This document shows positions 14,179-35,469 of a stretch of DNA of 64,000 nucleotides, in pieces. The first letter of the stretch is position 1, and each line of letters begins with the position of its first letter. The stretch lies in assembly GCA_021821945.1 (NCBI GenBank), contig JAJZTF010000014.1, forward strand, positions 1 to 64,000, written 5' to 3'. A program made the translations under genes and the position numbers. A model generated the notes under the pieces. It had not been told where the DNA came from and did not search any database. It worked only from the letters and a program-made list of their open reading frames with translations. Origin of the DNA: Pseudomonadota bacterium (GTDB lineage Bacteria > Pseudomonadota > Gammaproteobacteria > Burkholderiales > Gallionellaceae).

Positions 14179-14406
14179 ATGAATTTTGACAAAGAATTTG
14201 ATGCCAGCGGCCTGTCCTGCCCTCTGCCCATCGTGAAGACCAAGAAGTCGCTCGCTGACATGCAGTCGGGCCAGGTGCTCAAGGTGATCGCCACCGATTG
14301 CGGCGCGGTCAAGGACATGCAGGCATTCTCAGATCAGACCGGTAATCCGCTGCTTTCCAGCAGTGAAGAAGCCGGCAAATACATATTCTTCATACAGAAG
14401 AAGTAA
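14179..14406 (+). CDS. tusA: Sulfur carrier protein TusA
   Basis: 75 aa. The active cysteine is C14 in GLSCPLPIVK, the CPxP motif of TusA proteins, and the fold length is full. TusA accepts sulfane sulfur as a persulfide and hands it to DsrE-type proteins in the cytoplasm. AGGAG precedes the ATG by nine bases. dsrE2 follows 29 bp later. The rhodanese gene that usually completes an rhd-tusA-dsrE2 cluster is not present here. Confidence 0.95.
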   Translation: MNFDKEFDASGLSCPLPIVKTKKSLADMQSGQVLKVIATDCGAVKDMQAFSDQTGNPLLSSSEEAGKYIFFIQKK

Positions 14407-14435
14407 GCGATCACTCAACTAACAGGGGGAGTAGC

Positions 14436-14903
14436 ATGAGTAAAAAGATGGCGATCATCGCAACCAAGGGGACGCTGGACATGGCTTATCCGCCGTTCAT
14501 CCTGGCGTCCACCGCGGCGGCGTTGGGTTACGATGTGCAGATATTCTTCACATTCTATGGCTTGCAGCTTTTGCGCAAGGATCTGTCCAGCGTGATGATC
14601 AGTCCGCTGGCCAACCCTGCGATGCCCATGCCGGTTCCCATGCCGGTGATGGTGCAGATGCTGCCCGGCATGGAATCGATGGCGACGATGATGATGAAGC
14701 AGAAGCTGAAGAAGCACGGCGTTGCGTCCCTTGAGGAACTGCGCGAGCTTTGCCTGGAAGCGGATGTCAAATTCATCGCCTGCCAGATGACGGTCGATCT
14801 CTTCGAATTCGACAAGAGCGAATTCATCGATAACGTCGAATACGGCGGCGCATCCATGTTCTTCGGCTTTGCCGGCGAGACGGACATTTGCCTGTTCGTA
14901 TAA
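14436..14903 (+). CDS. dsrE2: DsrE2-type sulfurtransferase
   Basis: 155 aa DsrE/DsrF/DrsH-like protein of the DsrE2 type. It starts KKMAIIATKGTLDMAYPP, has a central Met/Pro-rich membrane-associated stretch (MPMPVPMPVMVQM) and the conserved cysteine in FIACQMTVDLF. Family members are often membrane-bound persulfide carriers working with TusA in sulfur oxidation. It follows tusA on the same strand with a GGGGGAG ribosome site. Confidence 0.92.
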   Translation: MSKKMAIIATKGTLDMAYPPFILASTAAALGYDVQIFFTFYGLQLLRKDLSSVMISPLANPAMPMPVPMPVMVQMLPGMESMATMMMKQKLKKHGVASLEELRELCLEADVKFIACQMTVDLFEFDKSEFIDNVEYGGASMFFGFAGETDICLFV

Positions 14904-14968
14904 GCTGAAATAGAATGGCCATTGCAGTAAAAGTGTTTTAGAAGACTAATCAACTCGGGGAGATTTGA

Positions 14969-16189
14969 ATGAAGATGAAGAAGATTCTGGTTGCGATGAT
15001 CGCGGCAGGCGCGATGGGTTCGGCTTATGCGACCGACGGCTATTTTTCTGACGGTTTTGGCATGAAGTCCAAGGGCATGGCTGGTGTGGGTATCGCGCTG
15101 CCTCAGGATGCGCTGGCTGCGGCCAACAATCCGGCCGGCATGGTGATGGTGGGCAACCGCGTCGATCTGGGCGCGGATTTCTTCGAGCCCAGCCGCAGCA
15201 CACAGATATCGGGACTTACAAACGGAGACTATTCCGGCAACAGCAGGCCGCTCTTCGTGATCCCCGAGTTCGGTTACAACCACATGCTGGATACCAACAA
15301 GTCCCTGGGCGTATCGGTTTATGGCAACGGCGGCATGAATACAGCCTATGCCAACAGCCCGTTCGGCCCCAATGCTGGCATCAACCTGTCGCAGCTTTTC
15401 ATAGCGCCCACCTATGCGATGAAGATCAATGACAGCAACGAGATCGGTATCTCGCTGAACCTGGTTTACCAGATGTTTTCCGCCAATGGCCTGCAAAATT
15501 TTGCACTGATGTCCAGCAATCCCAGTGCGTTGACCAACAACGGCACGGACACGTCGACCGGCGTGGGCGCGCGCATCGGCTGGATGGGCCAGGTCAGCCA
15601 AGCCGTGACCCTGGGCGCGACCTATGAACCCAAGACCCACATGAGCAACTTCAGCAAGTACTCGGGTCTCTTCGCGGGCGGCGGAAGCTTCGACATCCCT
15701 GCAAGCTATGGCGTGGGCGTCGCGGTGAAAGCCACCAACAGCACGACGGTCTCGGCTGATTACAAGGTGATCAAGTACGGCGATGTGCCGGCGATTGCCA
15801 ATACTGCGACACAGGGCGGCCCTCTGGGTGCAGCCAACGGTGCAGGTTTCGGCTGGCAGGACGTGAAGGTGATCAAGCTGGGTATCAGCCAGCAGGTGAA
15901 CGATCTTTGGACCGTGCGCGCAGGCTACAGCCACAACACCCAGCCCATCCCGGCAAGCCAGGCGCAGTTCAACATCCTGGCGCCGGGCGTGGTTCAGGAT
16001 CAACTGACGCTCGGCATGACCTATGATGTGACCAAGACCAACGAGCTGACCGTGGCTTACATGCACGCATTCCAGAACAGCGTGTATGGTGCAAATACAT
16101 ACCAAAACCCAACTCAGACCGGTCTCAGCAATATCAATCTCAAGATGTACGAGGATTCGCTGGGCATAGCCTACAGCTGGAAACTCTAA
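14969..16189 (+). CDS. OmpP1/FadL-family outer-membrane transporter (first copy)
   Basis: 406 aa. Signal peptide of about 21 residues (cut after GSAYA), then a FadL-type N-terminus with GFGMKSKGMAGVGIALPQDALAA and the NNPAG motif. The rest has the alternating, glycine- and asparagine-rich beta-barrel pattern and ends in an aromatic-rich strand (IAYSWKL). FadL-type barrels import hydrophobic compounds. Placed behind tusA-dsrE2, uptake of sulfur or a hydrophobic sulfur compound is a reasonable guess, not shown. A terminator follows. Confidence 0.88.
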   Translation: MKMKKILVAMIAAGAMGSAYATDGYFSDGFGMKSKGMAGVGIALPQDALAAANNPAGMVMVGNRVDLGADFFEPSRSTQISGLTNGDYSGNSRPLFVIPEFGYNHMLDTNKSLGVSVYGNGGMNTAYANSPFGPNAGINLSQLFIAPTYAMKINDSNEIGISLNLVYQMFSANGLQNFALMSSNPSALTNNGTDTSTGVGARIGWMGQVSQAVTLGATYEPKTHMSNFSKYSGLFAGGGSFDIPASYGVGVAVKATNSTTVSADYKVIKYGDVPAIANTATQGGPLGAANGAGFGWQDVKVIKLGISQQVNDLWTVRAGYSHNTQPIPASQAQFNILAPGVVQDQLTLGMTYDVTKTNELTVAYMHAFQNSVYGANTYQNPTQTGLSNINLKMYEDSLGIAYSWKL

Positions 16190-16211
16190 GCAAGTTTGAA
16201 AGGGTTCAAGG

Positions 16212-16240
16212 ACCCGCTCTGAAAGGAGCGGGTTTTTTTA
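16212..16240 (+). terminator. Rho-independent terminator after the first porin
   Basis: ACCCGCTC (16212-16219) pairs with GAGCGGGT (16226-16233) around a six-base loop and is followed by a run of T. It separates the two porin genes. Confidence 0.9.
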
Positions 16241-16277
16241 TGCCCGAAGTTTTATTTAACTACTGAAGAGCATCAAC

Positions 16278-17486
16278 ATGAAGAAAATCGTTTTATCCCT
16301 GCTTGCCGCACTTACGCCCGTTCTGGCCCATGCCACGAACGGCGACACGATGATGTCGGTGGGTTCCGAGAATACCGCGCTGGGCGGCACGGGTGTTGCG
16401 CATTACGTGGGTGCCGAGAGCGCCTTCGCGAACCCCGCGATGCTGGGTCTGTCGACAGGGGATGAGCTGGTCGGCGGGGTGGTTCTTTTTAAACCAACGG
16501 TCACCAACAGCGGTATGCAAGGCATCACTGAAAGCAGCACTGCCAATACCAGTTATATTCCGGATGTATCCTACTCCAGCCGCATCAGCGATCACTTCAC
16601 CTATGGTATCGCCATAGCTGGAATTGCCGGCATGGGCGTGGACTATACCGGCGGGATTGCAAGCAATACCATGGATGCCAGAACCCAGCTGAGTATCCTG
16701 AAGGTTTTGCCGACCATCGCGTACAACGACGCCAATTTTGGTTTGGGTTTCTCTCCGGTGCTGCAATATGGCTCCCTGGCGATGTCTTTTATTGGAAACA
16801 CAACGATCAATCCGAATCAGAATGCGACTTCCGATACGCGCTTGGGTTATGCCATGGGCGGATATTTCAAGCCTGTGTCTGCGCTGACTTTGGGCGTGGC
16901 TTATAATTCCAAAATCAAGATGAATTATGCGCCTCAGATTTCATACGCCGCATCTCAGGGTTTCGGTCAAACTTATTCGGATAATCTGACTCAGCCTGCC
17001 GAGATCAAGGTGGGGGTTTCTTACGATCTCAACCAGAGTTTTACGTTGACCGCTGATTATCGTCAGATTCAATGGGCAAGTGCGCAGGACTATGGTAATT
17101 TGGCCTGGAAGAATGAAGATGTCACCGCGATCGGTATCAAGTACAAAAATGACGGCTACTGGCTGGGTGCCGGCTATAACAATTCAAATAATCCGATCGG
17201 CGTATTCGCCAATGGAGTTGCAGCGAATGCGCATAATGGCCAGAACGGCATAGGCAATTTGTTCAACAACCTGATGTTCCCCGGCATCATCAAGAGTGCG
17301 TACACTTTCGGCGGCGGTTACATGCTGAACAAGCAGTTCGAGCTCGCAGGCTCCCTGATGTATGCGCCCAAGGTCACGACAACGGTGGATGTCAGCGATG
17401 CCGCACAATTGGCGCCGGGTTCGCTGTATAACACGACGACGCATTCGCAGAAGGCGCTCTCGATATCCCTGCGCTACAAGTACTGA
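16278..17486 (+). CDS. OmpP1/FadL-family outer-membrane transporter (second copy)
   Basis: 402 aa. Signal peptide of about 19 residues (VLAHA cut), then NGDTMMSVGSENTALGGTG and the family motif ANPAMLGL. Barrel-like repeats follow, ending in SISLRYKY. It shares architecture with the preceding gene but is clearly diverged, so it is a related family member rather than a recent duplicate. A terminator before it implies its own promoter or partial read-through. The substrate is unknown. Confidence 0.87.
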   Translation: MKKIVLSLLAALTPVLAHATNGDTMMSVGSENTALGGTGVAHYVGAESAFANPAMLGLSTGDELVGGVVLFKPTVTNSGMQGITESSTANTSYIPDVSYSSRISDHFTYGIAIAGIAGMGVDYTGGIASNTMDARTQLSILKVLPTIAYNDANFGLGFSPVLQYGSLAMSFIGNTTINPNQNATSDTRLGYAMGGYFKPVSALTLGVAYNSKIKMNYAPQISYAASQGFGQTYSDNLTQPAEIKVGVSYDLNQSFTLTADYRQIQWASAQDYGNLAWKNEDVTAIGIKYKNDGYWLGAGYNNSNNPIGVFANGVAANAHNGQNGIGNLFNNLMFPGIIKSAYTFGGGYMLNKQFELAGSLMYAPKVTTTVDVSDAAQLAPGSLYNTTTHSQKALSISLRYKY

Positions 17487-18776: not shown

Positions 18777-19646
18777 TCATTCCCTGGACAGGCGGTCCAG
18801 ATAGCGCGCGCGAAACAGAAGGCGCGGATGCAGAGGGTCGTCTGTAAAGCCGCTTCTGTCGTGCAGCACGTTGTTGCAAAGCAATCCCTGATTGGCTTCG
18901 AGCTTTACGGTGTGGATGTGCTCCGTGCCGGACGCGAGCAGATTCTCGAGGCATGTGACTGCAGCCCTTGTCGCATCGTCATCCTTCCATTCTATGCTGC
19001 GGGTGCGTGCGGTGTAGCGCATGTGCAATGTCCCCTGATCGACAAAAAAAACGGGGCCGGACTGTGCGGGCCGAGCGATTCCGGCTTCATCCGTGCGGGC
19101 GGGTATGGTCATTGCGTCATTGCAGGAAAGCGCGCGTATATGAGCGGGATCGAGATCCCTGAGCAGAAGATAGACGATCTCGTGATCCATCACCCGGTTG
19201 ATCCCGCCAGACATGGCAGGCGATACGCAGTGCAGCACCATCGCGCGTATCCGCCTGTCCTCGGGGTTGTAGTAGCCGTCGGTATGCCACTTGATCGCGC
19301 GGTCCGTGTAGGGGATGTAGGATTGGCGCACGCCTTCGCTTTCCGTCACGGTGATGCGGGATATGCCCTGTTCGCCGGCGAGCCAGTTGGCATCCAGGCG
19401 TTTCAGGCCCAGCTGGAGTGCGAGTTGCTGCAGTCCGTTCTCGTCGATCTCGGTGTTCGAAGCATAAAGCGCCATGTTGCTTCTGTTGCATCGCTCGAGC
19501 AATGCGCGGCGTTCGGCTACGGTCAGCGCCAGCGGGTTCCTGACCTCGACCAGCAGCTCCGATGTATCGGAAATCGCATGCGCGAGCTTCTGGTCGCGCC
19601 AGGATTGGTACGCGTCCGTGTCTTGCAGGTCGAATGGGTTGCTCAT
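18777..19646 (-). CDS. TauD/TfdA-like Fe(II)/2-oxoglutarate dioxygenase
   Basis: 289 aa. It has the metal triad pattern: H121 and D123 in IKWHTDGYY, and H262 in NNVLHDRSGF. The C-terminal RARYLDR includes an arginine suitable for binding 2-oxoglutarate. The fold resembles TauD-type enzymes that hydroxylate sulfonates or other small molecules. The substrate cannot be read from the sequence; the sulfur-gene context suggests an organosulfur compound or a modification reaction. It is the last gene of the operon divergent from dsrA and overlaps the upstream gene by 4 bp. Confidence 0.8.
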   Translation of the reverse strand: MSNPFDLQDTDAYQSWRDQKLAHAISDTSELLVEVRNPLALTVAERRALLERCNRSNMALYASNTEIDENGLQQLALQLGLKRLDANWLAGEQGISRITVTESEGVRQSYIPYTDRAIKWHTDGYYNPEDRRIRAMVLHCVSPAMSGGINRVMDHEIVYLLLRDLDPAHIRALSCNDAMTIPARTDEAGIARPAQSGPVFFVDQGTLHMRYTARTRSIEWKDDDATRAAVTCLENLLASGTEHIHTVKLEANQGLLCNNVLHDRSGFTDDPLHPRLLFRARYLDRLSRE

Positions 19647-20251
19647 GCTTCCTTTGGAGCGGTGAGCCTTTTTCTTGCGGGGCGCGCCTTCGTGGGTTTC
19701 GCATGGAGCAGATCCTTGAAGTTTCCCTCCAGCATGTCGATCGCTTCGGGCGCTTCGATGCTGATGATCTGGTCTATGATCCAGCCGCTGTCCTTCTCGT
19801 CCATGATCTGGTTCAGGCAGTAGGCCAGATAGCGCAGGAAGGCATATTCAGGGCCGTTTTCGGTGTAATTGAATTCGGCATATTCGCCCGCGCGTTCATT
19901 GAGCGAGTCGATGAACTTCTGCTTGCATGCGCCAAATTCGCGTTCCATCAGGCGGCTCTGGTTTTCCGCATAAGTCGCGCCCACGTGGTTGGCAAGCGCG
20001 CTGGTGAAGGTGACGCGCTCATCTTCGCTAAATTGCCGGTAAGCCAGCCGGTCTGCGACCAGTATCAGAAACACCAGGAATTCGCGCAGAAAGTCGAAAT
20101 ACTGGGGGCCGATCTCGATGTCGAACTTGGCTTTGCGGGTGTTCTTCAGCGCATTTTCGGCTATCCTCGATATGTTGAATGCGACCGCCCCGGCAAGCTC
20201 CGCCGGGGTGTGCTCGCGATCCGCCCTGAACCATTTGCTCTTGATGCGCAT
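19643..20251 (-). CDS. Uncharacterised helical protein of the dsr-divergent operon
   Basis: 202 aa, not recognised. It looks entirely helical and soluble, with a mildly hydrophobic stretch (FLREFLVFLILVADRLAY) near residues 54-71 and a lysine/arginine-rich tail (about 183-202) that could bind nucleic acid or acidic partners. Only two cysteines. It starts 6 bp after the tandem TusA gene and its stop overlaps the dioxygenase start (ATGA), so it is tightly coupled in the operon. Confidence 0.75.
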   Translation of the reverse strand: MRIKSKWFRADREHTPAELAGAVAFNISRIAENALKNTRKAKFDIEIGPQYFDFLREFLVFLILVADRLAYRQFSEDERVTFTSALANHVGATYAENQSRLMEREFGACKQKFIDSLNERAGEYAEFNYTENGPEYAFLRYLAYCLNQIMDEKDSGWIIDQIISIEAPEAIDMLEGNFKDLLHAKPTKARPARKRLTAPKEA

Positions 20252-20257
20252 GCGGGA

Positions 20258-20743
20258 TCAGCTCTTTTGCAGGAAAAACGCATAGACGTCGGCGGCGATC
20301 TCGGATGTGTCCAGTATCTTCACGTTGGTGGCTGCAGCCCAGTCGACGATGTCGGAGTGTATGCCCGGGCAGTTGCTGATCAGTTTCAGCACTTCCTCCC
20401 TGGCCATGCCGTTTAGCAGCTTCTTCGCCTCTACGATGGGGCCGGGGCAGACGACATTCCGGATGTCGAGCACGACGTTCGCCTTGATGGTTTCGCCGGT
20501 GCCTTTCCTGACGAAATAGGCCGTTCCGCCACCCGGGATCGGTTCGGTTCTCAATACCTGGTTGCCGGTTTGTTCAGACCAGGCGAAGAGATCGTCGCTG
20601 GTGCCGGGACAGTCCGACATCAGCATCATGATCTGCTCGTGCTGCAAATCGTTGATGATGCGTTTGACGCCGAGCAGCGGCGCAGGGCAGGAGAGCCCGC
20701 GCATGTCCAGGGTGACATTGGTGTGCAAATTTTGATGGCTCAT
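20258..20743 (-). CDS. Tandem two-domain TusA-like sulfur carrier
   Basis: 161 aa made of two consecutive TusA-like domains. Each has its carrier motif (C19 in RGLSCPAPLL, C99 in RNVVCPGPIV) and a second matching cysteine (C45 in SDCPG, C125 in SNCPG). Both halves are complete and distinct from each other, so two persulfide sites may sit on one chain. A role in passing sulfur between partners, or in holding two sulfur atoms, is inferred. It follows the DsrC-like gene by 33 bp. Confidence 0.88.
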   Translation of the reverse strand: MSHQNLHTNVTLDMRGLSCPAPLLGVKRIINDLQHEQIMMLMSDCPGTSDDLFAWSEQTGNQVLRTEPIPGGGTAYFVRKGTGETIKANVVLDIRNVVCPGPIVEAKKLLNGMAREEVLKLISNCPGIHSDIVDWAAATNVKILDTSEIAADVYAFFLQKS

Positions 20744-20776
20744 GTTCGGTGTCCTCGGTTTGCAGAAGGGGAAGGC

Positions 20777-21106
20777 TCAGTAGCCGCCTTTGCCGTATGG
20801 CTGCGGCAGGCCTGCGACCTTTGCTGCCTGCTTGGCGGGGCCGGTCGGGAAGAGGTCGTAAAGCGCCTTGCTGTCGGCTTCTGGCCAGAACTCGTTCACA
20901 CCCTTGAGCATGTTTCGGAAATTGGGCGTTGCGCCGTGTTCGCGATACTGATCGCGCATGTAATTGATGATCTCCCAGTGCTTGGGGGTCAGCTCTATGC
21001 CTTCCGCCGCGGCGATCACGTTGACCACTTCTTCGCTGAAGTCGGCTTCGAGCAGATACCCGTCCGCGTCAGTTTCAAGTTCGACTCCTGCTACGATATA
21101 TCCCAT
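20777..21106 (-). CDS. DsrC-like protein lacking both redox cysteines
   Basis: 109 aa, clearly a DsrC/TusE fold: PKHWEIINYMRDQYREHG and the GPAKQAAKVAGLP arm match DsrC (HWEVINFLREYFEE and GPGKQACKIAGLP). The arm cysteine of DsrC (C99) is alanine here, and the penultimate C110 is lost because the tail ends YGKGGY. It therefore cannot carry a persulfide or form the trisulfide. Cysteine-free DsrC homologues are thought to be regulatory or competitive binders (inference). AGGAGA precedes the ATG. Confidence 0.88.
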   Translation of the reverse strand: MGYIVAGVELETDADGYLLEADFSEEVVNVIAAAEGIELTPKHWEIINYMRDQYREHGATPNFRNMLKGVNEFWPEADSKALYDLFPTGPAKQAAKVAGLPQPYGKGGY

Positions 21107-21157
21107 TGCTTCTCTCCTTGATATAAGTGTGTGCTGATGAAAAAATCCACGAGGCCA

Positions 21158-21754
21158 TCACTCGAGGTCGGTGATCACCTTGTAGGGTATGAATATGCCG
21201 CAGCCGTAGCGTCGGTATTCCGCCAGTCCTGCATACTGCAAGCGCAGCGAATCGTCCTGCTTCAAATCGTGGATCACGAGGCTGTAGCCTTGTATCGTCC
21301 GGTCCTTGTCGGCGAGGCTGTTTTTCATGCCGCAAAGCAGCTTCCCGTCAACCCCAAGCTCGGCAAGCCTTTTCGATACCTCCTCCAAAAATGCCACCTC
21401 GTCCTTGTCGCTTGCAACAAGATGCGCATGCAGTGTGGAGTAGGGCTGTATCTTGCGCAGCCTGCCGCTTCCAAGATGGAGCGTTGCTCCGCCGATTTCA
21501 AGGTGCTTGTTTGCAAGCTCGGCGAAATTGTCGGCCATGGACAGGCTGAGGCGCACCACCAGCTTGCTGCGCTTTGCAAGCAGCATGCCGGCTTCGCTGA
21601 CCGAGGTGCGCAAGGGCACGACCCCGGCATGTGGATCGTCTGCAAGCATGGGGGCATGCTGCACCAGTGCATCCCATAGCGCAAATTGATAGATTGGGGG
21701 TATGATGTCACCGCTGACATCGAATACCGCCTCTGTCATCTCGACGAAGCTCAT
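21158..21754 (-). CDS. Cas6/Cmx6-like RAMP-fold protein in a sulfur operon
   Basis: 198 aa. The C-terminus SLRLQYAGLAEYRRYGCGIF is very like the glycine-rich end of Cas6 of the Cmx6 (I-MYXAN) type. Earlier KLVVRLSL, LHLGSGRLRKIQPYSTLHAHLV and LCGMKNSL fit the same family plan of ferredoxin-like RAMP domains. Such proteins normally cut CRISPR transcripts, but no CRISPR array or other cas gene is in the window. The start at 21754 overlaps the previous stop (TGATG); the frame continues 16 codons further upstream only over the neighbouring gene. Its function here is unknown. Confidence 0.7.
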   Translation of the reverse strand: MSFVEMTEAVFDVSGDIIPPIYQFALWDALVQHAPMLADDPHAGVVPLRTSVSEAGMLLAKRSKLVVRLSLSMADNFAELANKHLEIGGATLHLGSGRLRKIQPYSTLHAHLVASDKDEVAFLEEVSKRLAELGVDGKLLCGMKNSLADKDRTIQGYSLVIHDLKQDDSLRLQYAGLAEYRRYGCGIFIPYKVITDLE

Positions 21755-21969
21755 CAGGCCTGTCCCTGGGCGTCGGCCCATTCGTTCATGGTCTTGGCCC
21801 ACTGTCTTGCGGTCTGCGGATCGATGTCGAATATCGTGAAGCGTTTGGCCTCCCGTATGCGGATGCGCATCATGCTCATGCCGCCCTCGGCATGGTCGAT
21901 CTGCTGCAGCTCGATTTCCTGGTTCCCGAGAGGAACTTTGAATTTTGCTAATTCTCTAATTTGCGCCAT
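21754..21969 (-). CDS. Small 71-aa protein, first gene of the dsr-divergent operon
   Basis: 71 aa, not recognised. The first 50 residues look like beta strands (KFKVPLGNQEIELQQID and MMRIRIREAKRFTIFDID) and the last 20 form a probable amphipathic helix (PQTARQWAKTMNEWADAQ). No cysteines. It lies 30 nt downstream of the predicted start at about 22000 and overlaps the Cas6-like start by one base, so the two are translationally coupled and could work together. Confidence 0.75.
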   Translation of the reverse strand: MAQIRELAKFKVPLGNQEIELQQIDHAEGGMSMMRIRIREAKRFTIFDIDPQTARQWAKTMNEWADAQGQA

Positions 21970-22006
21970 AATGCATTTCCAGTAACTCTGTGGTATGTTG
22001 TTTAAA

Positions 22007-22035
22007 AGTATATCCTTTATCAGGATGTTTTTGAA
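22007..22035 (-). promoter_or_regulatory. Probable sigma70 promoter of the dsr-divergent operon
   Basis: On the minus strand: TTCAAA (22035-22030), a 17-bp spacer, TATACT (22012-22007). It matches the consensus at 4 of 6 and 5 of 6 bases with ideal spacing. The predicted start near 22000 gives a short leader of about 30 nt. Confidence 0.6.
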
Positions 22036-22057
22036 ATGCTACTGCGGGAAGATTGAA

Positions 22058-22075
22058 GCAACCCGTTAGGGTTAT
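22058..22075. promoter_or_regulatory. Candidate operator in the dsrA divergent promoter region
   Basis: GCAACCCGTTAGGGTTAT, 14 of 18 bases identical to the perfect palindrome before tusA. The core AACCC-N4-GGGTT is kept. Its centre is about 66 bp upstream of the predicted start of the divergent operon and about 200 bp upstream of dsrA, so it could serve either direction or both. Confidence 0.55.
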
Positions 22076-22264: not shown

Positions 22265-23560
22265 ATGGCAAAGAAACTATATGACACTCCCCATCTCGAT
22301 CAGCTTGAGTCCGGCCCCTGGCCCAGCTTTGTGACGGGCATCAAGGAGCTGGCGAAGAACAATGATATGGCCGTCGATCTTCTGGGGCAGCTCGAGGCTT
22401 CCTATGAGACCAGGAAGGGCTACTGGAAGGGCGGCACGGTTGGCGTCTTCGGTTATGGCGGCGGCGTGATTCCCCGCTTCACCGAGCTGAAGGACGAAAA
22501 CGGCGAGGCAAAGTTCAAGGATGCGGCCGAGTTCCATACGCTGCGCGTGATGCCTCCACCCGGCATGCACTATGACACGGACGTACTGCGCAAGTTCTGC
22601 GACATCTGGGAAAAGCACGGTTCGGGCCTGATTGCTTTCCATGGCCAGTCCGGCGACATCATGTTCCAGGGTGCCACGACTGAGAATGTCCAGCCTGCTT
22701 TCGACGAGATCAATGAGTTGGGCTTCGATCTGGGTGGCGCGGGTCCTGCTGTGCGCACTTCGATGTCCTGCGTGGGTGCTGCGCGCTGCGAGCAGTCCTG
22801 CTACGATGAGGCAAAGGCGCATCGCGCAATCATCAATACCTTCCTCGACGATATCCATCGCCCCTCCCTTCCATACAAGTTCAAGTTCAAGTTCTCCGGC
22901 TGCCCCAACGACTGCATGAATTCCGTTCAGCGTTCGGACATGGCTGTGATCGGAACCTGGCGCGACAACATGCGCACCGACGAGGCACTGGCCAAGAAAT
23001 GGTTTGCGAAGCATGGCATGGACGAGCTGGTCAACGACGTCGTCGCCCACTGCCCGACCAGGACTTTCCAGGTCAAGGAGCTTTCCAAGATCAAGAGCGG
23101 CGAGCACATCACCAGCGTCGCGGTGAGCGATACGCACGGCATCGAGATCAACAATCAGGACTGCGTGCGCTGCATGCACTGCATCAACGTGATGACGGGC
23201 GCCCTGGCTCCCGGCATGGACAAGGGTGCGACGGTGCTGGTTGGCGGCAAGAGCCATCTCAAGATCGGCGGCCTGATGGGTACCGTGGTGATCCCGTTCA
23301 TGAAGCTGGACAGCGATGAGGCGATCGAGAAACTGGTCGATTTCGCCCAGCGCACGATCGATTTCTTTGCCGAGAATGCGCTGGAGCATGAGCGCACCGG
23401 TGAGATGATCGAGCGCATCGGCCTGGCCAACTTCCTGGATGCGATGGAGATTGACGTCGATCCTTCGATGGTGAACTCGCCGCGCATGAATCCTTATGTC
23501 CGTACCGATGGATGGGATGAGGAAGTTGCCAAGATCAACGCTAAAAAACAAGCTGCCTGA
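22265..23560 (+). CDS. dsrA: Reverse dissimilatory sulfite reductase, alpha subunit
   Basis: 431 aa. It has the siroheme-[4Fe-4S] cysteines C169, C175 and C179 (SCVGAARCEQSC) plus C213 and C217 (SGCPNDC), and a ferredoxin domain with C300, C303 and C306 (CVRCMHC). DsrAB in the cytoplasm oxidises DsrC-bound sulfur to sulfite. It is the first gene of the plus-strand dsr operon, with AAAGGA before the ATG. The leader region of 295 bp is shared with the divergent accessory operon. Confidence 0.98.
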   Translation: MAKKLYDTPHLDQLESGPWPSFVTGIKELAKNNDMAVDLLGQLEASYETRKGYWKGGTVGVFGYGGGVIPRFTELKDENGEAKFKDAAEFHTLRVMPPPGMHYDTDVLRKFCDIWEKHGSGLIAFHGQSGDIMFQGATTENVQPAFDEINELGFDLGGAGPAVRTSMSCVGAARCEQSCYDEAKAHRAIINTFLDDIHRPSLPYKFKFKFSGCPNDCMNSVQRSDMAVIGTWRDNMRTDEALAKKWFAKHGMDELVNDVVAHCPTRTFQVKELSKIKSGEHITSVAVSDTHGIEINNQDCVRCMHCINVMTGALAPGMDKGATVLVGGKSHLKIGGLMGTVVIPFMKLDSDEAIEKLVDFAQRTIDFFAENALEHERTGEMIERIGLANFLDAMEIDVDPSMVNSPRMNPYVRTDGWDEEVAKINAKKQAA

Positions 23561-26089: not shown

Positions 26090-26112
26090 TCCACTGGTAA
26101 CCGAGCCTGGCG

Positions 26113-32661: not shown

Positions 32662-34083
32662 ATGAACCGTTTCCTCATCTCGGCAGCGCACAAGTCATCT
32701 GGCAAGACGATGGTCAGCATAGGCTTGTGCGCCGCCCTGAAGGCGCGCGGCCATTCCGTGCAGCCCTACAAGAAGGGTCCCGACTACATCGACCCGATGT
32801 GGCTTACCCAGGCATCGGGCAGGGCCTGCCGCAACCTCGATCTGTACCTGATGCACAACGAGGACATCATCTCCACTTTTTCCCGTCATCTGTCCGAAGT
32901 CAATCTGGTCGAGGGAAACAAGGGGCTTTATGACGGGCTCGCGCTCGATGGCAGCAACAGCAATGCAGCGCTTGCGAAGATGCTCGATCTTCCGGTTTTC
33001 CTGGTGATCGACGCGCGCGGCATGACGCGCGGCATAGCTCCCCTGATCCTGGGCTATCAGGCATTCGACCGCGACATCAACATCGCCGGCGTGCTGCTCA
33101 ACAATCTGGGCGGCAGCCGGCATGAATCCAAACTGCGCGCGGTGATCGAGCATTACACCGACTTGCCGGTGGTGGGCGCGATCCACCACGACGAGAGGCT
33201 CTCCATCGTCGAGCGCCATCTCGGGCTGATGCCCAGCAACGAATCCCATGTCGCTGCCGCCAAGATCAAGCAGATAGGTGATGCGATATCCGAGCAGGTC
33301 GATCTTGAAAAACTGCTCCGCCTTTCGGAAAAGAAGATCCTAGAAGTGCCGCAAAAGGCGGAGGTCATCGACTTGCCTGCCAGGGACAATGTGCGCATCG
33401 CGATCGCGCGCGACCGCGCATTCGGATTCTATTATGCGGACGATCTCGATGCGTTGAGGCAGGCGGGTGCCGAGCTCGTGCCCTTCGATGCGCTGCGCGA
33501 TGCAAAGCTACCGGAAGCGGATGCGCTCTATATCGGCGGCGGGTTTCCCGAGACCTGTGCCGAGGAACTCGAAGCGAACGTGAGCCTCAGAAAAGAGATC
33601 AGGTGTCGCATTGAAGAGGGGATGCCGACTTATGCCGAATGCGGGGGATTGATGTATCTTTCCCGCGGCATCGAATACCAGGGCAGGACATACGAGATGG
33701 TAGGCGCAATCCCCGGAGATGTGAAGATGCATGCCAAGCCGGTAGGGCGCGGCTATGTGCATCTCAAGGAAGAAGAGGCGCATATCTGGCCCAGGCCGGA
33801 GTTTCCGGCGGCGTCCATCAAGGCGCACGAGTTCCATTATTCCAGCCTCGAGAATCTGCCCGGGGACTGCAGATATGCCTATCGTGTCGAGCGCGGCCAC
33901 GGCATAGATGGAAAGCAGGACGGCCTGATGCTGCACAACATGCTCGCCTCCTACACGCATTTGCGCACGATAGGCAGCTGCTACTGGGCGCAGCGTTTCG
34001 TTGCCTTCATCAGGCGCGTCAGGAGCCAGACGGCTGCCCGCATTGATGAAGGCACGATGAATCAGTCAAAACACTCAGGGTAA
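32662..34083 (+). CDS. dsrN: DsrN, cobyrinate a,c-diamide synthase-like siroheme amidase
   Basis: 473 aa CbiA-type glutamine amidotransferase. N-terminal ATP site AAHKSSGKTMVSIG and GPDYIDP; C-terminal glutaminase domain with the nucleophile region AECGGLMYLS. In dsr loci this enzyme is believed to amidate siroheme for DsrAB. It lies between dsrP and cysG, which supports the siroheme role over cobalamin synthesis. Confidence 0.93.
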   Translation: MNRFLISAAHKSSGKTMVSIGLCAALKARGHSVQPYKKGPDYIDPMWLTQASGRACRNLDLYLMHNEDIISTFSRHLSEVNLVEGNKGLYDGLALDGSNSNAALAKMLDLPVFLVIDARGMTRGIAPLILGYQAFDRDINIAGVLLNNLGGSRHESKLRAVIEHYTDLPVVGAIHHDERLSIVERHLGLMPSNESHVAAAKIKQIGDAISEQVDLEKLLRLSEKKILEVPQKAEVIDLPARDNVRIAIARDRAFGFYYADDLDALRQAGAELVPFDALRDAKLPEADALYIGGGFPETCAEELEANVSLRKEIRCRIEEGMPTYAECGGLMYLSRGIEYQGRTYEMVGAIPGDVKMHAKPVGRGYVHLKEEEAHIWPRPEFPAASIKAHEFHYSSLENLPGDCRYAYRVERGHGIDGKQDGLMLHNMLASYTHLRTIGSCYWAQRFVAFIRRVRSQTAARIDEGTMNQSKHSG

Positions 34084-34089
34084 TAGAAG

Positions 34090-35469
34090 ATGGATTTTCT
34101 GCCGATTTTCATGAACATCAAAGGCAGGCTTTGCCTCGTGGTGGGTGGCGGCGAGGTGGCCAAACGCAAGGCCGGCGTGCTGCTCGAGGCGGGGGCAAGA
34201 GTGCGCGTGGTGGCCCCCGAGATAGATCCTGCGCTCTCGGCGATGGACGGAGTCACGAGCATCGTTCAGCGCTTTGATGCAACGCACCTCGAAGGCGTGA
34301 TGCTCGTGATCGCGGCGACCAACGACAGGGCCGTGAATGCCGAGGTTTCGCGTCTGGCAAAGGAAAGCAGCATCCCGGTGAACGTGGTCGATGACCCCGA
34401 GCACTGCAGCTTCATCATGCCGGCCATCATGGACCGCTCCCCTCTGATGGTCGCATTTTCCAGCGGCGGCGCATCGCCTGTTCTGACGCGCATGATGCGC
34501 GGCAAGCTTGAGAGCATGATCCCCCAGAACTTCAGCCGTCTTGCCGCGTTTGCCGAGCGCTATCGGGAGAAGGTGAAACAGTATGTCACCAATCCCGCGA
34601 AGCGCCGCATCTTCTGGGAGAACGCGCTGGATGGCGTGGTCGCGGAGAAGGTTCTGACCGGCGACGAATCGGGTGCGGAGGCCATGCTGCAGGCGATGCT
34701 GAACGACGAGGACAACATCGTCAGGGGCGAGGTATATCTTGTCGGCGCAGGCCCCGGGGATCCGGACCTTCTGACCTTCCGGGCGCTGCGCCTGATGCAG
34801 AAGGCGGACGTGGTGGTCTATGACAACCTCGTGTCCAAGCCCATCGTCGACATGACAAGGCGCGATGCGGAGCGCATCTATGTCGGCAAGAAGCGCGCGG
34901 ATCACACGCTGCGTCAGGAGGAGATCAATGCCCTTCTGGTGCGCCTGGCGCATGAGGGCAAGCGCGTCTTGAGGCTCAAGGGTGGGGATCCGTTCATCTT
35001 CGGGCGGGGTGGCGAAGAGATCGAGACGCTGGCTGCACAGAACATCCCCTTCCAGGTGGTGCCCGGCATTACCGCGGCGTCGGGTGTCGCATCCTATGCA
35101 GGCATACCGCTGACCCACAGGGATTATGCGCAGTCCTGCATGTTCGTCACGGGGCATTTGAAGGACGGGACGATGAATCTGGACTGGGATGCGCTGGCAA
35201 GACCCAGGCAGACGGTGGTCGTCTACATGGGGCTGCATGGACTGGATACGCTATGCGCGAAGCTGATCGAACACGGTCTCCCGGGGGCGACGCCCATCGC
35301 GATCGTGCAGCAGGGCACGACCCAGAACCAGCGGGTCGTCACCGGGACGCTCTCGGATCTGCCGCAGAAGCAGGAAGTCGCGCAACTGCATGCGCCAACC
35401 CTGATCATCGTGGGCGGCGTGGTGAAGCTGCGGGAGAAATTGCAGTGGTTCCATCCCCATCTTGACTGA
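34090..35469 (+). CDS. cysG: Siroheme synthase CysG (methyltransferase, dehydrogenase, ferrochelatase)
   Basis: 459 aa, the usual length of the trifunctional enzyme. N-terminal CysG-B part with NAD site [15 protein letters not shown]-terminal uroporphyrinogen-III methyltransferase with [12 protein letters not shown] and [17 protein letters not shown]. It supplies siroheme to DsrAB, and with dsrN next to it the whole cofactor step is local. It begins 6 bp after dsrN. Confidence 0.96.

Follow-up and report, generated by a model that had tools for sequence, protein, structure and literature searches.

The reverse dissimilatory sulfite reductase (rDsr, or reverse Dsr) pathway is a main route by which many Gammaproteobacteria oxidise sulfur. 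The Cas6/Cmx6 family (PF09559, TIGR02807) is known from loci with clustered regularly interspaced short palindromic repeats (CRISPR), where the relatives of the protein described here are genes of cyanobacterial plasmids that stand beside cas3 and/or cas8a1/cmx1 or cmx8. Here we describe a locus in which the two meet. It lies in a stretch of 64,000 nucleotides from a bacterium of the Gallionellaceae (contig JAJZTF010000014.1; "the window" hereafter), in which a Cas6-like protein is encoded by the second gene of a six-gene operon divergent from dsrA. The other five genes encode a DUF6967 protein, a DsrC-like protein, a tandem TusA, an all-helical protein and a TauD-like dioxygenase.

Cas6 and dsr are treated apart in the excerpts of PMC10952691, PMC5728499 and PMC5944118, and a link between them is likewise not described in the excerpts of PMC7596348, PMC11406059, PMC10504309, PMC4287430 and PMC6018796. 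In the open-licence literature we found no paper that brings together Cas6 and reverse dissimilatory sulfite reductase, none with PF09559, and no description of the link, which has hence possibly been published elsewhere. We tentatively propose, as a view that falls short of an even call, that the Cas6-family protein is a standing accessory of the gammaproteobacterial rDsr pathway, which most likely no longer serves CRISPR and would act at the level of proteins.

Co-occurrence of the Cas6-like gene with dsrA

Among 150 genomes of relatives, in which dsrA was counted above the profile cut-off and the lists were compared by hand, PF09559 was found in 61 and dsrA in 61; 59 had both and 4 had one only. 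The Cas6-like gene was alone in G031, where it lies at a contig end, and in G104, where dsrA is in pieces that score below the cut-off. dsrA was alone in G060, the contig stopping just upstream of it, and in G080, the contig stopping inside the DUF6967 gene. G042 had a weak match to the dsrA profile (E 9e-26) and no Cas6-like gene.

The same was found across the class. In 369 Gammaproteobacteria drawn evenly, with dsrA counted at E values up to 1e-30, PF09559 was present in 118 genomes and dsrA in 119, both in 111, and 12 of the 15 exceptions adjoin contig ends. Eight of these genomes had dsrA only: in G219, G228, G258, G355 and G386 a contig end lies at most 0.7 kb from dsrA on the side of the module, in G271 the contig stops inside the gene expected between DsrQ and the Cas6-like gene, and G359 and G502 are drafts (86-88% complete, 390-440 contigs) with no end beside dsrA, whose congeners G236, G295 and G407 carry the Cas6-like gene. 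The seven others had the Cas6-like gene only, with contig ends on the dsrA side in G216, G242, G275, G334 and G465, a dsrA fragment at a contig end in G466, and no adjoining contig end in the draft G447, whose congeners G206 and G342 have both genes on separate contigs. As far as gene content can tell, the Cas6-like gene thus tracks reverse-Dsr sulfur oxidation, with a near-perfect co-occurrence with dsrA within the class. Two copies of dsrA were seen in G295, G304, G459, G481 and G497, and in each of these genomes a single copy lies near the Cas6-like gene.

Outside the class, the distribution was different. A phylum-level sample of 388 genomes contained dsrA in 53 and PF09559 in 5, all of the window's order and all with dsrA, and the Cas6-like gene was present in 0 of the 48 dsrA-bearing genomes from outside the class. 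The dsrA loci of 19 of these 48 were inspected; dsrEFH was in the fetched stretch of 6 (L257-L261, L269) and not in that of the other 13. In 4 of the 6, DsrQ is encoded divergently from dsrA with an adjoining DUF6967 match (one of them weak, 26 bits) and no Cas6-like gene. DsrQ is therefore more widespread, and the Cas6-like gene belongs to the gammaproteobacterial version of the locus.

Co-occurrence could simply follow from the neighbourhood of the two genes. Yet, in two genomes of a single contig (G257 and G472, 1.4-1.5 Mb) the Cas6-like gene is kept at about 41 kb and about 517 kb from dsrA, which points to function and not merely to a shared location. It is also retained in five genomes of only 1.0-1.1 Mb (G188, G290, G403, G435, G498).

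Conservation of the module beside dsrA

We inspected the neighbours of the Cas6-like gene in 58 loci of relatives. dsrA was on the opposite strand in 57 (1 truncated), the DsrC-like gene was near in 56 (2 truncated), as was the gene for the helical protein (56; 2 truncated), DUF6967 was found in 57, the 58th being a fusion (L044), and DsrQ in 52 (4 truncated; absent from L032 and L040). In a wider set, the best 80 of 573 confirmed genome-contig matches, whose named members include Thiohalobacter thiocyanaticus, Thioalkalivibrio denitrificans and Candidatus Marithrix, the DsrC-like gene was near in 69 (63 on the same strand; 6 truncated, 5 absent), DsrQ in 68 (7 truncated, 5 absent), and dsrA was encoded on the opposite strand in 56, with 19 loci truncated and 5 lacking it although their flanks were complete. 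Of 30 hand-picked loci of the class, 25 had the DsrC-like gene near (4 absent), 21 had DsrQ (6 absent) and 21 had dsrA (7 truncated, 2 absent). Gene order in these loci thus indicates that the Cas6-like protein is usually encoded with DsrQ and a cysteine-less DsrC paralogue, divergently from dsrA.

The initial annotation had read the operon as an accessory system that would control or modify sulfur trafficking. That it is an accessory module of sulfur oxidation is supported: the Cas6-like, DUF6967 and DsrC-like genes are kept beside dsrA, and the parts tested are missing from relatives without dsr; DsrC-like and helical proteins were found in 0 of 8 congeners lacking dsr, in searches that held no positive of their own. 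The genes were neither unlinked in relatives nor equally common in organisms without sulfur oxidation. The tandem TusA, which had been counted in the same set, is not part of the conserved core, since it is found mainly, though not always, in the window's family.

In many gammaproteobacterial loci a conserved protein of about 235 amino acids is encoded between DsrQ and the Cas6-like gene; 50 loci match it, and in 48 of these (some places being counted twice) the Cas6-like gene is within 1 kb. A full DsrQ-Cas6-dsr locus of the gammaproteobacterial type was also seen in L198 (JABDRC010000157.1), a record titled "Halobacteria archaeon"; the title is probably a binning or labelling error.

A Cas6-family protein that differs from its CRISPR relatives

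The product of the second gene is a true member of the Cas6 family with a Cas6 fold. It matched PF09559 with 164.9 bits (cut-off 26.7; E 2.8e-48) and TIGR02807 (Cas6/Cmx6) with 134 bits (cut-off 98.85), and the NCBI model labels it as type I-MYXAN Cas6/Cmx6. By sequence, the closest solved structure was 8fcj_B, the Cas6 of a type I-B CRISPR-associated transposon (CAST) Cascade (E 3.5e-7). An AlphaFold2 model built from 60 sequences (predicted local distance difference test 94.2) showed a tandem ferredoxin-like fold with a C-terminal G-rich loop and superimposed on 8fcu_B with a template modelling score of 0.87 (Z 24.5, root mean square deviation 2.1 over 190 residues), the next matches being Pyrococcus and other Cas6 proteins at Z of about 15. 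The loop glycines G176, G178, G184 and G186 are each present in 176-178 of 179 distinct sequences. The Cas6/Cmx6-like identity proposed by the initial annotation is thereby confirmed. A search of phage records found no relative at E 0.01.

The sequences nonetheless depart from those of CRISPR loci. In the 179 distinct sequences R62 is found in 179, K192 in 176 and E119 in 176, as compared with 2, 0 and 0, respectively, of 8 family members from cyanobacterial plasmids; the conserved new positions are 61, 62, 100, 138 and 192. Conversely, positions 109, 114, 128, 144 and 180 carry K or R in 6 to 8 of the 8 plasmid relatives and in only 0-30% of the Cas6-like sequences. The median isoelectric point (pI) of the core domain is 7.24 for 59 sequences of the order and 6.27 for 119 of the class (6.2 for the window). 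In 5 CRISPR relatives this region has a pI of 8.5-9.7, and over their full length the 8 relatives lie at 9.3-10.2 and E. coli CasE at 9.59. His38, a candidate for the active-site histidine that follows the first helix, is present in 0 of 179 sequences, compared with 5 of the 8 plasmid relatives. Positions 22 and 191 co-vary, being His-His in 102 of 119 class sequences and Tyr-Tyr in 42 of 60 from the window's order. In a tree, five CRISPR sequences formed a clade (support 0.999) separate from all 179; as the tree has no outgroup, it is by inference on direction that the protein is called domesticated from CRISPR. Taken together, these comparisons indicate that the Cas6-like protein is less basic than its CRISPR relatives and has invariant residues of its own, at least as read from the alignments.

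We considered the possibility that the protein still serves CRISPR, as an orphan Cas6 processing arrays in trans. Its family membership and the type I-MYXAN label are in keeping with this, yet cas1 was found in 0 of 1 genome, the window's own, with matches in 9 of 14 controls (other cas genes were not searched for), and no array-like repeats were seen in 211 fetched loci by a simple scan restricted to these loci, whose sensitivity is limited, as it picked up the arrays of 3 of 9 control loci. Furthermore, the distribution of the gene goes with dsrA and the protein is less basic than its CRISPR relatives. A service to CRISPR is thus unlikely, and processing of arrays in trans by an orphan enzyme seems to us extremely improbable. 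One other member of the family stands apart from cas genes: on a Gloeobacter morelensis plasmid (L278:2471-3262) no cas gene is annotated within 2.5 kb, and the gene forms a run with those of a phosphoadenosine-phosphosulfate-reductase-family protein and a cupin. Its product is still basic (pI 9.3).

The redox cysteines of the DsrC-like paralogue are replaced

The DsrC-like protein belongs to the DsrC family (TIGR03342, 102 bits for a cut-off of 53.5), and, as the initial annotation had recognized, it has no cysteine at all, both redox positions being replaced. Such cysteine-free DsrC paralogues are, we presume, those called RspA. We aligned the paralogues of 182 loci (158 distinct sequences, some places having been fetched twice) with the DsrC of the window. 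At the position of the last cysteine they have Gly in 179 of 182 loci and a gap in 3, and at the first position Cys in 5 of 182, whereas the cysteines of true DsrC are kept in 112 of 112 and 111 of 112 loci. The KGGY end is found in 155 of the 158 distinct sequences, and the remaining 3 are cut frames; by comparison, 109 of 110 distinct true DsrC sequences have the terminal Cys. No cysteine at all is present in 132 of the 158, and at least one in 26, in 10 of which it is within the last 15 residues. The DsrC body and the arm residues KQ...GLP are kept, which makes docking at the DsrC site plausible on the basis of the alignment, and sulfur transfer not plausible.

DsrQ, DUF6967, tandem TusA and the helical protein

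The TauD-like dioxygenase of the operon is the known DsrQ. In the excerpt of PMC7596348, the tauD-like gene divergent from the dsr cluster is said to have been named dsrQ by Lenk et al. 2012, and DsrQ is also mentioned in the excerpt of PMC6018796. The statement of the initial annotation that none of the six genes is standard in the rdsr pathway was therefore too strong. The gene is on the strand opposite dsrA, and the facial triad (H121-x-D123, H262, R275) is conserved in 99-100% of 157 sequences. DsrQ had no match to PDB sequences at E 1e-3.

DUF6967 was present in 62 of the 150 relatives, namely the 61 with PF09559 and G080, and one relative (L044, genome G110) has a natural in-frame fusion of DUF6967 with Cas6 in a frame of 295 amino acids. 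We rejected DUF6967 as a universal part of the module, as it was found in 0 of 18 genomes that carry dsrA and belong to the class but not to the window's order, by a search without a positive of its own; it is nonetheless present in two loci of the class, L141 and L160. The gene of sirohaem synthase, cysG, is directly beside DUF6967-DsrQ in three rDsr loci from outside the class that have no Cas6-like gene.

The lineage-restricted tandem TusA has one CPxP motif in each half, CPAP and CPGP. The helical protein of 202 amino acids matched no Pfam or NCBIfam family at E values up to 1 and, in a Foldseek search of the PDB, nothing below E 0.26. The best VIA match was a Cbp3 homologue with a Z of 8.6, which is below the meaningful level for helical bundles, and no function is therefore claimed. 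In gammaproteobacterial loci the gene of the helical protein is located away from the Cas6-like gene. In L147 (3248-4315) an adjoining DUF6866 gene lies on the other strand, and frames of about this length were seen repeatedly elsewhere.

Search for an RNA target in the dsr cluster

For each of the eight intergenic gaps from dsrA to dsrL we folded the sequences of at most 40 loci and compared them with shuffled sequences. The dsrC-dsrM gap showed an excess of structure (mean z -2.26 in 40 loci), and the seven others showed no mean excess (z -0.46 to +0.29). This structure was rejected as a target of the Cas6-like protein, because it does not track the gene: little or none is found in the window and in 28 of 35 same-genus loci in spite of the Cas6-like gene (it is present in 7 of 35), and the Cas6-less loci L258-L261 have structured dsrC-dsrM gaps. 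Thus no RNA target tracking the Cas6-like gene was found in the intergenic gaps from dsrA to dsrL, the only ones folded; the dsrA and module leaders were not among them. The structure itself is a GC-rich hairpin present in many rDsr clusters (e.g. L182, L207, L226), including Cas6-less ones, and absent from the window at 26090-26112. It looks like an attenuator or a stabiliser of mRNA.

Layout of the locus

The coordinates of the locus are collected in Table 1. The six minus-strand genes divergent from dsrA are all where the initial annotation had placed them. Their spacing ranges from a 4-nt overlap to a gap of 51 nt; the ATG of the Cas6-like gene overlaps the stop of DUF6967 (TGATG), and the fifth and sixth genes share ATGA, with a 4-nt overlap. 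This tight spacing makes co-transcription likely, and in this graded form the earlier claim that the genes are made together holds. The promoter claimed upstream of them is present as a site at exactly 22035-22007 (TTCAAA-17-TATACT); it matches only 9 of 12 consensus positions, and a scan of 451 bases, both strands included, found 4 such sites, for a mean of 0.9 (sd 1.1) in shuffled sequences, so that a promoter here is plausible from the sequence. In the dsr cluster on the plus strand, dsrA (at 22265) is followed by dsrB, E, F, H, C, M, K and L; dsrA scored above the TIGR02064 cut-off, and the other names are from position and from the initial annotation, the order being kept across relatives. 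Further downstream, a CobB/CobQ-type amidotransferase gene, which we take to be dsrN, precedes a cysG-type gene. Before the module in the numbering of the window, at 14179-17486, are genes for a TusA-like protein, a protein of 155 amino acids and two of about 400 amino acids; many relatives have the TusA-like and 155-amino-acid proteins on that side as well.

Table 1. Coordinates of the operon, of the adjoining dsr cluster and of related features in other loci (window positions unless a locus is named)
Feature	Position	Strand	Evidence or remark
DUF6967 protein (PF22295), 71 aa (amino acids), operon gene 1	21754..21969	minus	E 2.6e-32
Cas6-like protein, 198 aa, PF09559 / TIGR02807 (Cas6/Cmx6), rDsr-linked clade, gene 2	21158..21754	minus	profiles, model, tree
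DsrC-like protein, 109 aa, no Cys, C-terminal KGGY, gene 3	20777..21106	minus	PF04358, E 1.7e-33
Tandem TusA, 161 aa, CPxP in each half, gene 4	20258..20743	minus	two PF01206 stretches
All-helical protein, 202 aa, gene 5	19643..20251	minus	near the module in relatives
DsrQ, TauD-like 2-oxoglutarate/Fe(II) dioxygenase, intact HxD...H...R, gene 6	18777..19646	minus	PF02668, E 8.2e-16
Sigma-70-like promoter site upstream of the operon (plausible)	22007..22035	minus	9/12 consensus match only
dsrA, divergent neighbour, first gene of the dsrABEFHCMKL cluster	22265..23560	plus	TIGR02064
CobB/CobQ-type amidotransferase gene, downstream in the dsr cluster	32662..34083	plus	
cysG-type sirohaem synthase, dsr cluster, behind the CobB/CobQ-type gene	34090..35469	plus	
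Protein of about 235 aa, examples	L149:7590-8297, L150:8244-8954, L128:1921-2625		no Pfam family (one tested)
cysG beside DUF6967-DsrQ	L259:4717-6168, L260:5996-7441, L261:5263-6720		one Pfam-confirmed, two by similarity

Discussion

We favour, by inference, a role at the protein level in building or gating sulfite reductase over RNA cutting. The cysteine-dead DsrC-like protein, with its KGGY end, would occupy the docking place of DsrC on DsrAB (or DsrMKJOP) without carrying sulfur, and the Cas6-like protein, together with DUF6967 where present, would hold or deliver this placeholder. Its handling might help to assemble rDsrAB, to load it with sirohaem or to gate it, while DsrQ would perform a separate oxidation. 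A link to sirohaem is suggested by gene order, through cysG beside DUF6967-DsrQ in the three Cas6-less loci, cysG in the dsr cluster of the window and the DUF6967-Cas6 fusion. That a CRISPR RNA-processing fold has been domesticated into energy metabolism as a non-RNA protein, which throughout the gammaproteobacterial reverse-Dsr lineages works with a sulfur-dead mimic of DsrC in assembling or gating sulfite reductase, is in our opinion nearly an even call.

Several observations weigh against this proposal. A mirror-tree test gave no signal between the Cas6-like and DsrC-like proteins beyond the background of dsrA, dsrB and dsrE (partial r -0.00 in 79 loci, 0.03 in 103). rDsr outside the class runs without the Cas6-like protein, which is therefore not part of the core chemistry. 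The set of CRISPR sequences used for comparison is small and mostly cyanobacterial, and His38 itself is present in only 5 of its 8 plasmid members. The shift in charge is uneven, 37% of the order sequences and 16% of those of the class having a pI above 8. Finally, the G-rich loop, R68 (179 of 179), K or R at position 64 (98%) and, in 119 of 119 class sequences (10 of 60 in the order), His22 are kept, so that specific RNA binding is possible.

These retained features, the Cas6 fold itself, the roughly one-sixth to one-third of sequences above pI 8 and the structured dsrC-dsrM gap of many loci would suit a protein dedicated to binding or cutting a dsr transcript or a small RNA, for which the DsrC-like protein would sense the sulfur state. 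Such a regulator resembles one of the two designs offered by the initial annotation, the other being reuse of the repeat-associated mysterious protein (RAMP) fold in a task that does not involve RNA. On balance the evidence tilts towards this second design, as the protein is less basic overall and several basic positions are lost (109, 114, 128, 144 and 180); moreover, the dsrC-dsrM structure does not track the Cas6-like gene and the other seven gaps are without mean structure excess. We therefore hold an RNA regulator to be rather unlikely.

A different connection with RNA would be one in which a TusE-like DsrC paralogue and a Cas6-fold RNA binder separate, or connect, the high-flux Dsr sulfur relay and tRNA 2-thiolation. 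E. coli TusE binds on the MnmA-tRNA side, the DsrC-like protein matches the TusE/DsrC family and the tandem TusA of the window has both CPxP motifs, yet the DsrC-like protein is without the cysteines needed to carry sulfur and the tandem TusA is mainly, not always, a feature of the window's family; this branch is in our view improbable. Still less credit, that of a very improbable reading, is due to the idea that the Cas6-like gene is a conserved bystander of rDsr with no functional tie to it. A divergent arrangement can be inherited as such, but the gene is kept when unlinked from dsrA (G257, G472) and in genomes of 1.0-1.1 Mb, and the two are present or absent jointly inside one genus.

If a protein-level role in sulfur oxidation is true, genes that bear the name Cas6/Cmx6 belong by the hundreds to sulfur oxidation, and the protein would exemplify a Cas-family member serving metabolism. 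The pair that it forms with the dead DsrC, present in almost every genome of the class sampled with dsrA, would be an overlooked component of the pathway, perhaps because it is annotated as CRISPR. Counts of CRISPR systems should leave out matches to PF09559/TIGR02807 that have no cas neighbours, and the Cas6-like gene may serve as a genomic marker of gammaproteobacterial rDsr. The maturation of rDsrAB and the control of the access of DsrC also become testable.

Compared with known systems, the Cas6-like protein is closest to the type I-MYXAN Cas6/Cmx6 of cyanobacterial plasmids, with which it shares the Pfam and NCBIfam family and 24-31% identity, but R62, E119 and K192 belong to the window's clade, which is also less basic; the cyanobacterial genes have cas neighbours, whereas the Cas6-like gene has dsr neighbours, in a genome without a cas1 match. 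With the type I-B CAST Cas6 (8fcj, 8fcu) it shares the two-domain fold and the G-rich loop. The DsrC-like protein is above the cut-off of the DsrC/TusE family and shares its arm residues but, unlike the DsrC carrier, is without both redox cysteines, ends in KGGY and is encoded beside the Cas6-like protein. The last gene of the operon fits DsrQ, being of the TauD family, divergent from dsrA and with an intact HxD...H...R; the account of DsrQ in the excerpt of PMC7596348 mentions no Cas6-like or DsrC-like neighbour. The dsr core cluster, with its CobB/CobQ-type gene and CysG, occupies the same locus as the Cas6-like operon on the opposite strand, but the Cas6-like part, within the sample, is present only in Gammaproteobacteria.

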